This document shows positions 25,425 through 30,135 of a stretch of DNA of 64,000 nucleotides, one piece after another (the first letter of the stretch is position 1; every line of letters begins with the position of its first letter). This stretch comes from Leptospiraceae bacterium. Lineage in GTDB: Bacteria; Spirochaetota; Leptospiria; Leptospirales; Leptospiraceae. The position numbers were made by a program, and so were the translations under genes. Below the pieces are notes generated by a model that saw only the letters and a program-made list of their open reading frames with translations, was not told where the DNA came from and did no database searches. The stretch spans positions 1,288,001 to 1,352,000 of the forward strand of contig JABTUZ010000002.1 of the NCBI GenBank assembly GCA_015075105.1, read 5' to 3'.

Positions 25425-26378
25425 TTATTTGACGAAAATCTTCTTGAAAAATGGAAATTTTTCTCTATTTTTTTCCTTTTTTTGCCAATAGGAGGCTAAA
25501 ACGCTTGCAATTAATGAGTGAAAAAGGCTGGAAATTGCGCTTGGGACAGCTACAAGTGGGTCAGAGAAGTTATTTTTTGCTAAAACTACTCCAAGTCCTG
25601 AATTTTGCATTCCAACTTCAATGGAGACGGTTCTGGATACGATTTCGTTTTTTGTAAAAATTTTGGAAAAAATATAGCCTAATAAAAAACCTAAAAAGTG
25701 TAGTAAAAATACAGATACGACTAACTTCCACCCGGAAGATAAAATAGCTTTTCTTGAAGAACCGATTACTGAAGCTACAATTAAGACGATACATGCCACT
25801 GCGAGCACTACAAAAATAGAACGAATTTTTTTAGTGAAAAAGGGTAGAATTTTATTGAGTAGAACTCCGAGAAACACTGGAAAAACAACTACTTGTATTG
25901 TGCTTATGAATAGTCCTAATGCGTTTACATTGATCTTGTTTCCTGCAAGAATCCAAGTTAGTATTGGAGTTGCAATTACAGAAAATAGTGTAGATACGGA
26001 GGTCATGGTAACAGATAGAGCTAAATCTCCTCTCGCAATATACGTGATTACGTTAGACGCTGTTCCTCCCGGGCAAGAGGCTACTAAGATTAATCCTACT
26101 GCAAAAAATGTCGGTAGGTTTAAGATTAGCCCTATACTCCATCCAAGTAGGGGCATAATAGTAAATTGTAAGAGAACTCCTATAAACACATAGAATGGGG
26201 ATTTGAGTATATTCGTAAAATCTTTTGCTTCTAAGGTAACTCCCATACCAAGCATAATAAGCCCAAGTCCAAAAGTGATCCAGTTTCCTGAAAACCAAAC
26301 AAATAGCTCGGGTTTCAATAGAGTGAATACACTTGCAATCAGTACAAAAATTGGAAAGTATTTCGTAGCTATATTCAT
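25425..26378 (-). CDS. Bile acid:sodium symporter-family transporter
   Basis: 317 residues with about nine to ten membrane spans. SCPGGTASNVITYIARGDLALSV is the conserved crossover region of the BASS/SBF family, followed by EVGMQNSGLGVVLA. Members move organic anions with sodium; bacterial substrates vary (keto acids, pantoate, bile-acid-like compounds). The gene follows the aminotransferase at 26396 with a 17-base gap, suggesting one transcript. Confidence 0.88.
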   Translation of the reverse strand: MNIATKYFPIFVLIASVFTLLKPELFVWFSGNWITFGLGLIMLGMGVTLEAKDFTNILKSPFYVFIGVLLQFTIMPLLGWSIGLILNLPTFFAVGLILVASCPGGTASNVITYIARGDLALSVTMTSVSTLFSVIATPILTWILAGNKINVNALGLFISTIQVVVFPVFLGVLLNKILPFFTKKIRSIFVVLAVACIVLIVASVIGSSRKAILSSGWKLVVSVFLLHFLGFLLGYIFSKIFTKNEIVSRTVSIEVGMQNSGLGVVLAKNNFSDPLVAVPSAISSLFHSLIASVLASYWQKKEKNREKFPFFKKIFVK

Positions 26379-26395
26379 GACGCGATTGGAAAACT

Positions 26396-27556
26396 TTAAG
26401 GAAGATTTTTTAGGAGATCAACTACTTTTTGTAATTGCTCTATAGAATTGTAAACATGGGGAGCGAGGCGAATTCTGTTTAGTCTCACTGCGCATACTAT
26501 ATTATTTTTTTGTAATATCTTAGCGACCTCTGTACTATCTTTGCCGGGTGCTTCAAACACAATAATTGCAGTCGGGTTTTGAAAATTATCCGAATACACT
26601 GTCATACCAATTTCTGTGAGTTTTTTAGAAAGAAATCCACTAAGGGCTAAGAGTCTTTCTTGGATATTTTGAAAACCTGCCTCGTCTAAAATTTCCAAGG
26701 AAGAGAGAAAATACACCCAGTCTGTAAAATTGGAAGTAGATATTTCAAATCTATCAGCACTATTTCTAAAATTATTTTTATAAGGGAGATATTCCTCACC
26801 ATTATCAACAGAGTTTTGTCCTTTGAAAATTGGTTTTAACTTTTTCAGTTTATCTCTTCGGATATACAGCACTCCCATTCCAAGTGGTCCAAGAAGCCAT
26901 TTCCAAGTAGGGAAGGCCATGTAAGAAATATTAGAAGATTGCAAATTTATCGGAATATGACCGACCCCTTGCGCACCGTCTAAAATAAAGTCTATATTAT
27001 TTTCGTGGCATAGCTCACCGATCTTTTGTAAAGGAAACACCATCCCTGTACACCAGTGAACCGTAGATATTGAAATTACTTTTACGTTTTTAGAAATCTT
27101 TTTTTTGAGATTTTGAAAAAACTCTTCTTCACTGGGTGCAAGCGAAATAAATTCTAACTCTACTCCTTTTTCTTTCCAGTGTTCAAAAGGATATACATTA
27201 CTCGGATACTCGTCTTGAAGAAGTAAAATTTTATCTCCTTTTTGTAAATTCAATCCATAAGAAATAAAATTCATTCCTTCTGAAGTGTTGTGAATGAGTG
27301 CAAGCTCAATTGGGTCACAGTTTAGCAGTTTTGAAAGTATAGATTTTATTTTATTTTTTACTTCGATATATTTAAAAGAATCGTTGAGTATCCCTTTTTG
27401 TGAATATTCTTTTAAATAAGAAGTTACCTTTCCTATAATTCGATTGCTTACAGGAGTTGTGCCGCAATTATTCAGCCAAATAAATTCATTATTTACCGGA
27501 TAGTCTTCATAGAAACTTTTCCATAAAGACTCTTCTTTTGGATTGAAAGATTCTAT
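26396..27556 (-). CDS. Class V aminotransferase (PLP), apparent AUA start
   Basis: 386 residues. The N-terminal family signature FIWLNNCGTTPVSN lies well upstream of the first in-frame ATG (27274), so the true start must be near 27556. There a perfect GGAGGT (27563-27568) sits six bases before ATA, and the ATA overlaps the stop of the upstream gene as ATAG. No ATG, GTG or TTG occurs in frame between the preceding stop codon and 27274. The PLP site is visible as DGAQGVGH and TWKWLLGP (Schiff-base Lys). Members act as cysteine desulfurases or isopenicillin-epimerase-like enzymes; the substrate is unknown. Confidence 0.8.
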   Translation of the reverse strand: MESFNPKEESLWKSFYEDYPVNNEFIWLNNCGTTPVSNRIIGKVTSYLKEYSQKGILNDSFKYIEVKNKIKSILSKLLNCDPIELALIHNTSEGMNFISYGLNLQKGDKILLLQDEYPSNVYPFEHWKEKGVELEFISLAPSEEEFFQNLKKKISKNVKVISISTVHWCTGMVFPLQKIGELCHENNIDFILDGAQGVGHIPINLQSSNISYMAFPTWKWLLGPLGMGVLYIRRDKLKKLKPIFKGQNSVDNGEEYLPYKNNFRNSADRFEISTSNFTDWVYFLSSLEILDEAGFQNIQERLLALSGFLSKKLTEIGMTVYSDNFQNPTAIIVFEAPGKDSTEVAKILQKNNIVCAVRLNRIRLAPHVYNSIEQLQKVVDLLKNLP

Positions 27557-30135
27557 TCTATTACCTCCGGTGAAGGAACAAAATCTTTCAGCATCTTATC
27601 CAATTTCAAGGCGTTCGGATTTTCCGGATCTAAAAATATAGCCTTGGCTAAAATTTTCCGTGCCCTCTCTATGTTTCCGAGCAATCTATAAGTATCTGAT
27701 AGATTGATTAGATTTTTTGTATTTTTCGGGTCTCTCAATTTCAATCTTTCGCCATAGTCTGCAGAGAGTACGTAGTCTTTATTCATTTTATTTGCGAATG
27801 AAGCGAGGTAGATAAATTCATTGTCTGAAGGATTCAGAAATGTATAAATATCGCAAAGAGAGCTTGCTCTTGCGTAGTCTTTTTGTTTTAGAGATAATTT
27901 TCCCATTTCTTTGATCAGGTCTAAATTTTTTGAATGAATCGAATATGCTTTTTCAAAGAATTCCATTGCAATCGGTAGATTCCCTGATCTTAGTTCTTTT
28001 TTTCCGTTTTCAAATTCTTCCCAAAATTTTTCAGGCAAAGAACTTTCGTCTGCATACTCTTCGTTTTCTTTGTAGCCAATTCTAAGCATGGTAAAGTCAT
28101 CTGATAATTCTCCTGCATTTTGAACCGAGAGAGCAATTTTTTCCAGTGTGCCTTCTCCATTTTCTACGTGGTGCAAGAATTGATTTTCGTCTTCGTTAAT
28201 AATCCTATTTCCGTCTTCATCTATCCCAAGAATAATATCGTCTCTACCGTCAGATCCGATAATCACTACATCTTGAGGCAAGAGTTGAACTGTTTTAATC
28301 GACAAGTCTCCGTCTAACCCCATGACCCCGATTTTATGAAGAGAGAGGTCATTGTCTATAAAACTTGCCTTTCCATCTCTATATAGTACACTCCAAGGAT
28401 GCTCTGCATTTATGTAGTACATAAATCCGGTGAAGTCTTCTACCATACCTATAACCATGGACACAAGCATGGAGCCGTCGAACGAGACAAACACGTCTTG
28501 TAATTCTATAAATGCATGTTTTAACCATTGCTCTGGAAATTTGTCCTGACTGATTGGATCCATCTGAGTTCGTACGATTATAGATTTTAGTACTACCCCA
28601 AGAACTAAGGCTCCTCCTGCTCCTTGGATCGATTTTCCCATTGCGTCCCCATTTAAAAATACCGTATAATCCTTACCTTTTAGTTGGATGCTGTGTGCAA
28701 TACAGAGGTCTCCACCGATTTCGGTGTCTTTATTTTTGAATTCAAAATGCTTTTTCTGTCTTACAAAAAAATCTATATGTACAAAATCTCCTTTGGAACG
28801 ATTGACTCCAAGCGGTTTGATGAGTAGAGAAGTAAGAAAGTAGTCACCGTCTTGCTGCACTTTCAATTCTTTTACTTCGGTTAGAGTTTTTTGTAATTCT
28901 GCAGTTCTTTCTTCAACTTTTCTCTCAAGGTGTGCATTCAATTCTTCTACCTGATTGTGAACTCTCAAGAATTTATTTGCGAGAACTACTGCAATTCCCA
29001 TGATGAATGTAAAAAATCCATACCTCATCAGTCCGAGATTTCTAAGTCCTCCCACAGGGATTGCTCCAAGCAAATCCCAAAGAGCTGTAATAACGAGAAT
29101 AGAGAATCCGATCAATAAACGAAAAGCGTCTTTATTTTTTAATTTCACTGCTTTGGTCATAACGTATCCGAGATAACCAAGGACAGAAAGTGCAGACAAT
29201 TGCCAGATAAGTAAAATCTGAGTAGTCACCCATCTTGGAACAAAGAGCATCAATAGACCAAGAATCGAAACGAATCCAAGATATATTCTTGAATACAGAG
29301 AGGCTTTTTTTTCAAAGAAGAAATTTTCAAAAAATAGAATTGCGAGTGCCGGGATAAAAAAGAGAAAAATGTATTCTACTCTTACAATTACTTTAAAAGG
29401 GTCCAACCCCCATTCAAAAACTGCGTTGGAGCGAGTGTAATTGTACACTGATATTAAAACAGAAAACAATCCAAAGTATAAATTGTATTTTTCTTTTGGT
29501 CGCTTTGCATACAATAGAAGGTGATAAAGCCCTACAAACATATACATAAACAAAAGCATCAGAGTCACCCTGTCGGATGCTTTTTGAATATTATTTTTGT
29601 AATAATCTAACTCAAAAGTATTGTCTCCTTCCTTCCCCCATAAACCTACTTCTTCTTTGTATCCCCCCTGAACAACAAATCTAAGTGTGTTTTCTTCCTT
29701 GATAGTGTTCTGTGGTAGGATCACGACAAGTCCTCTCACCATACCGTATTTCAGAACCTTTGTTCCGTCTAACTTCCCACCTGAGGCAATCTTTTGCCCG
29801 TTGAAATAAACATCATAAATATTTGTGATAAATGGAATAAGGATAGAAATATCTTCGTTTAGGTTTTTCAAGAAAGACTTTTCAAATTGGAATTTTTTTA
29901 AGAGTGTGATTCTTCTAAAAGTTTCATTTGGGTCGTTTGGCTCTATGTCTTTTATGGTAATTCTTAACTTTTCAAATTTTTTCCATGAAGGGTCGGTTTC
30001 ATTTGTAGTTAAATCAATTCCATCTTTTGCATACCAGTCTTCGATCAAAGAAGACGGAAGAGGAGAGGCTTCTAAGGATAGGGCAACGGAAATATTTAAT
30101 AAAAGCGCAATTGTTATTTGTAATTTTTTTTTCAT
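27553..30135 (-). CDS. 7TM receptor with SpoIIE-type PP2C phosphatase and TPR repeats
   Basis: 860 residues. Signal peptide at 1-23; an extracytoplasmic 7TMR-DISM-like beta domain to about 190; seven membrane spans at about 195-395; a coiled coil at about 397-430; a SpoIIE/RsbU-type serine phosphatase (GGDLCIAH, NGDAMGKSIQGAGGA, IGSDGRDD, DDFTMLRI) at about 440-675; then tetratricopeptide-like repeats from about 695 to the end. Such proteins dephosphorylate anti-sigma antagonists in partner-switching systems in response to an outside signal. The stop overlaps the presumed ATA start of the aminotransferase. Confidence 0.9.
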   Translation of the reverse strand: MKKKLQITIALLLNISVALSLEASPLPSSLIEDWYAKDGIDLTTNETDPSWKKFEKLRITIKDIEPNDPNETFRRITLLKKFQFEKSFLKNLNEDISILIPFITNIYDVYFNGQKIASGGKLDGTKVLKYGMVRGLVVILPQNTIKEENTLRFVVQGGYKEEVGLWGKEGDNTFELDYYKNNIQKASDRVTLMLLFMYMFVGLYHLLLYAKRPKEKYNLYFGLFSVLISVYNYTRSNAVFEWGLDPFKVIVRVEYIFLFFIPALAILFFENFFFEKKASLYSRIYLGFVSILGLLMLFVPRWVTTQILLIWQLSALSVLGYLGYVMTKAVKLKNKDAFRLLIGFSILVITALWDLLGAIPVGGLRNLGLMRYGFFTFIMGIAVVLANKFLRVHNQVEELNAHLERKVEERTAELQKTLTEVKELKVQQDGDYFLTSLLIKPLGVNRSKGDFVHIDFFVRQKKHFEFKNKDTEIGGDLCIAHSIQLKGKDYTVFLNGDAMGKSIQGAGGALVLGVVLKSIIVRTQMDPISQDKFPEQWLKHAFIELQDVFVSFDGSMLVSMVIGMVEDFTGFMYYINAEHPWSVLYRDGKASFIDNDLSLHKIGVMGLDGDLSIKTVQLLPQDVVIIGSDGRDDIILGIDEDGNRIINEDENQFLHHVENGEGTLEKIALSVQNAGELSDDFTMLRIGYKENEEYADESSLPEKFWEEFENGKKELRSGNLPIAMEFFEKAYSIHSKNLDLIKEMGKLSLKQKDYARASSLCDIYTFLNPSDNEFIYLASFANKMNKDYVLSADYGERLKLRDPKNTKNLINLSDTYRLLGNIERARKILAKAIFLDPENPNALKLDKMLKDFVPSPEVIE

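Follow-up and report, generated by a model that had tools for sequence, protein, structure and literature searches.

The locus considered here lies on the minus strand of a window of 64,000 nucleotides (C2:1288001-1352000 of the 3.42-Mb genome) and comprises three successive genes (Table 1), i.e. a long SpoIIE-TPR gene, a gene for a class-V aminotransferase and, in a presumed operon with it, a transporter gene, the ATG of which is 17 nt past the aminotransferase stop codon. The 3' end of the SpoIIE-TPR gene reads ...CCG GAG GTA ATA GAA TAG, with the TAG at 27555-27553, and it is within these few codons that the signals for starting the aminotransferase are apparently embedded.

Table 1. Features at the SpoIIE-TPR/aminotransferase junction and its surroundings (window positions).
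Feature	Position	Strand	Basis or remark
7TMR-DISM + SpoIIE phosphatase + TPR protein (upstream gene), 860 aa	27553..30135	minus	domain search
Hairpin 5' arm, UGAAAGAUUUUGUUC	27576..27590	minus	folding prediction
Shine-Dalgarno (SD) sequence GGAGGT	27563..27568	minus	within 3' end of SpoIIE-TPR gene
Hairpin 3' arm, GAAUAGAAUCUUUCA	27544..27558	minus	folding prediction; includes AUA and UAG
Proposed AUA start codon of aminotransferase	27554..27556	minus	
Class-V aminotransferase (SufS/cysteine-desulfurase-like), 386 aa from AUA	26396..27556	minus	PF00266, E 3.5e-50
First canonical in-frame start, ATG (residue 95)	27272..27274	minus	too internal for true start
SBF/PanS-like transporter (downstream gene), ATG start	25425..26378	minus	domain search

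An in-frame TAA at 27598-27596 precedes the aminotransferase frame, which is then open from 27595 as far as the stop at 26396. The preliminary description had found no ATG, GTG or TTG back to a TAA near 27600, and indeed there is none in this frame between the TAA and ATG 27274. From the TAA to the conserved Trp12 (27523-27521), no in-frame codon except ATA is a single base away from ATG, the next near-cognate codons (ATT 27481 and CTG 27475) both being within a conserved motif. A 6-nt spacer, AATAGA, separates the SD sequence (27568-27563) from the ATA (27556-27554), and, given AUA as the start, this codon shares bases with the SpoIIE-TPR UAG in a 4-nt stop/start overlap, AUAG (27556-27553). 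Both the perfect GGAGGT placed six bases ahead of ATA and the merging of start and stop in ATAG, as reported earlier, agree base for base.

The segment encoded before ATG 27274 is, as judged from sequence conservation and coding signal, genuine protein, as had been proposed for its N-terminal motif. In nine homologues (43-57% identical, with the alignment beginning at about residue 11) P20-V21-N22, I26-W27-L28-N29-N30-C31-G32-T33, Y51, G55, H89, T91, E93 and G94, all before residue 95, are invariant, as are the PLP residues D193 (Asp) and K219 (Lys). A dicodon coding scan that covered 1.2 Mb, about a third of the genome, and gave 709 coding ORFs assigns the aminotransferase 31 bits of coding signal over the 90 codons before its first canonical start, the largest value among the 709, with coding predicted to begin at contig position 1315544, four codons past the ATA. 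Relatives in the PDB are cysteine desulfurases and C-DES; the protein is labelled SufS-like only, since with NCBIfam TIGR01979 (SufS cysteine desulfurase) it scores 164.8 bits, below the cut-off of 475 bits.

The homologues start at ATG, or at TTG in one genome of the same family (G003), 1-5 codons ahead of Trp12, whereas the 11 residues preceding Trp12 in the present protein have no homology to its relatives. The SpoIIE-TPR/aminotransferase pair, sought in relatives, was absent from them, the homologues occupying other junctions, and so their ATG/TTG starts neither confirm nor refute AUA; a contig search with the aminotransferase protein returned three loci only. Homologues of the SpoIIE-TPR protein have their C-termini at most a few residues from the TAG position, so the TAG looks natural, with no sign of an obvious miscall. 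Since the aminotransferase homologues use ATG or TTG at other junctions and the TAG looks natural, the AUA start probably arose when the aminotransferase came to sit behind the SpoIIE gene.

The strength of the SD sequence is itself uncommon, in that of 3,545 random in-gene positions 23 (0.65%) have an anti-SD match of at least 6 nt at a usable spacing, compared with 60 of 709 chosen starts. Of the ATA, ATT, ATC and CTG codons that lie near coding onsets and follow an SD of 5 nt or more, only the aminotransferase ATA has both a 6-nt SD and a stretch of 94 codons free of canonical starts; the others mostly have ATG, GTG or TTG shortly after. Across the genome the pattern GGAGG-N4-9-ATAG shows no enrichment (72 matches, 87 in a reversed control) and so is no proof by itself; the case rests on the aminotransferase gene and not on a habit of the genome. 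SD enrichment before ATA, ATT, ATC and CTG was likewise absent (0-5%, similar to other codons), as was an excess of ATA at 4-nt overlaps (ATA 12, TTA 11, GTA 9), and dicodon scans of two further genomes (G005 and G018, 400 kb each) gave frameshift-like cases only. ATG is the start codon of infC both in this genome and in those relatives that could be read, so globally relaxed initiation has left no sign here. The infC start reads GGAGAATGAATGCTTAA, and in its leader an out-of-frame mini-ORF, ATG AAT GCT TAA, overlaps the infC ATG, an arrangement that is similar in G004, G006 and G007.

Folding of the junction predicts a 15-bp stem (27590-27576 with 27558-27544), with the SD in the loop region and both AUA and UAG in the 3' arm; relative to shuffled sequences z is -2.8, with 1 of 200 equally stable. 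In its 101-nt context the predicted minimum free energy is -25.9 kcal/mol, lower than at 704 of 709 gene starts and lower than at all 56 canonical 4-nt overlaps (the best of which gives -22.5). The unpaired probability predicted for the AUA is 0.004, compared with a mean of 0.44. Such burial of the AUA suggests, on the folding model, that the aminotransferase start depends on upstream translation, and the hairpin may be read as a gate opened by ribosomes on the SpoIIE-TPR gene; when the 5' arm was recoded synonymously 2,000 times, 58 of the variants (2.9%) folded as stably, so that the hairpin could also be a product of chance.

The best explanation, to which we give a probability of about two in three, is termination-reinitiation, with translation of the aminotransferase beginning at AUA 27556-27554 and with a low output tied to the upstream gene. 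Ribosomes completing the SpoIIE-TPR gene would open the hairpin that otherwise buries the AUA and would terminate at the UAG, where pairing of GGAGGU with 16S rRNA would keep them beside the overlapping AUA, so enabling them to restart there with fMet-tRNA. The weak codon, together with the hairpin, would keep aminotransferase output low and coupled to that of the SpoIIE-TPR gene. The DNA itself shows that the conserved N-terminus is encoded before the first canonical start and that only one near-cognate codon is in range, and it shows the SD sequence and the overlap; the hairpin is predicted from it. The AUA start, put forward in the preliminary description, is thus the best-supported choice, given the conserved upstream residues, the single candidate codon, the strong and well-spaced SD and the natural-looking TAG, while initiation at that codon, like the coupling and the low output, is something that we infer.

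An error in the assembled bases near 27521-27598, whether a miscall or an indel, could mask a canonical start or a continuous frame joining both genes. If the base at 27554 were a G miscalled as A, the true codon would be ATG and the TAG would not exist; a single indel would join both frames at ATG 27594, and the sample does hold a few probable frameshifts, e.g. in an M61 peptidase gene with an A6 run. However, the SpoIIE-TPR homologues end at about the TAG, which therefore looks right, and just 12 of the 709 ORFs have coding sequence well ahead of their first canonical start, several of these being prophage genes or remnants, so that the density of errors is far too low to expect one in a given start region; we regard an error as unlikely. 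It is similarly doubtful that the true start was recently lost, leaving a young pseudogene that is scarcely translated or not at all. The homologues' ATG/TTG near Trp12 and the non-homologous 11 residues before it are as such a loss would predict, but all 386 codons are intact, every invariant residue is present and a strong SD remains at good spacing.

Initiation further inside the gene, at ATT 27481, CTG 27475 or ATG 27274, is very unlikely. ATG 27274 is where a gene finder would call the start, but the invariant P20-V21-N22 would be lost from each of these codons, and I26-T33 and H89-G94 also from the ATG, and on inspection there is no SD at the ATT or the CTG. Hairpin-stimulated -1 frameshifting from the SpoIIE-TPR gene, yielding a fused protein, seems still more improbable, even though both frames are open over the stretch 27595-27553 and the predicted hairpin is stable. 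The 5' arm begins at 27590 and the TAA is at 27598-27596, so close together that a slip site would apparently not fit between them, and programmed frameshifting was rejected because the shared open stretch has no slippery heptamer.

In Escherichia coli, infC has an AUU start, which limits its expression. Reinitiation at the AUA of the aminotransferase would resemble this case and that of E. coli pcnB, likewise with an AUU start (pcnB reference in PMC13009471), in that a near-cognate start limits expression, but the codon differs, and autoregulation by IF3 is not at issue here because infC has an ATG start in this genome. Other parallels are the AUA starts with extended SD sequences established for infC, ccpN and citZ of Staphylococcus aureus, which give about 10-30% of AUG output (PMC13009471); there, as proposed here, a strong and close SD aids an AUA start of reduced output. 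Those starts were mapped by ribosome profiling and the available part of the report does not describe them as stop/start overlaps, whereas the present one is a prediction for a metabolic gene at AUAG. Four-nucleotide overlaps reinitiate in E. coli and Haloferax volcanii, and the NTGA pairs studied there likewise have a start and stop that share bases and an intragenic SD (PMC6728339). They differ in that the stop here is UAG, which forces the overlapping start to be AUA instead of NUG, and in that the start is within a predicted hairpin. Unfolding and reinitiation models of coupling are both current (PMC12548453). Thus starts at AUA, though rare, and overlaps of 4 nt are both already known; the predicted hairpin over the AUA and the recurrence of miaA genes lacking a canonical start (see below) are new, as is the combination of the known components.

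The same dicodon scan revealed a second case in this genome, the miaA gene (C1:362019), which has no canonical start before the P-loop and in which a CTG shares bases with the upstream TGA (CTGA). Within the family the miaA junction is CTGA in G003, with a GTG two codons further in; ATAG in G005 and TAATC in G006, both with no canonical start; TTG or ATC in G004 and G007; GTGA in G001; and ATG in G002. In a sister family it is CTGA in G024, G025, G026 and G029, the last with no canonical start at all (the upstream stops are based on eight loci). The gene upstream of miaA in the sister family is, from its C-terminus, what we take to be guanylate kinase-like (gmk), and the CTGA is thus common to two families with different upstream genes. 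The junctions CUGA, AUAG and UAAUC in several genomes imply that putative non-canonical starts at stop/start overlaps recur, with AUAG found also in an unrelated gene (miaA) of another genome (G005), and this speaks for the AUA reading of the aminotransferase.

Some other genes have unusual start regions. A SpoU-type RNA methyltransferase gene (G000:C1:25183) has a TAG at the place of its homologues' start region (ATG GAG AAA TAG AAA TCT), possibly reflecting a non-canonical start, an in-frame amber codon or a base error. A gene for a LolD-like ABC ATPase (G000:C2:864085-864760) has no canonical start before its conserved N-terminus and has CTG, ATT or ATC right behind the TAA stop of an upstream LolC-like gene. 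In two conserved ORFs (G000:C1:82780-81019 and G005:C51:115451) an ATG is one base out of frame near an A6 or A8 run, for which slippage, mutation or assembly error are the alternatives, and in a prophage head-morphogenesis-like gene (G000:C2:1116354-1114962) coding signal extends about 98 codons ahead of the first canonical start.

Gene finders allow only ATG, GTG and TTG, so genes of this type are shortened or missed; the aminotransferase would lose 94 residues, conserved motifs included. We tentatively suggest, as a possibility less likely than the reading of the aminotransferase gene, that reinitiation makes the choice of start codon less strict at stop/start overlaps in this order of spirochaetes, with AUA, CUG and AUC in stable use there, and miaA provides a recurrent, testable example of a putative non-canonical overlap start. 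Should ribosomes that have just terminated accept AUA or CUG codons which free 30S subunits refuse, stop/start overlaps would be where hidden starts should be sought.
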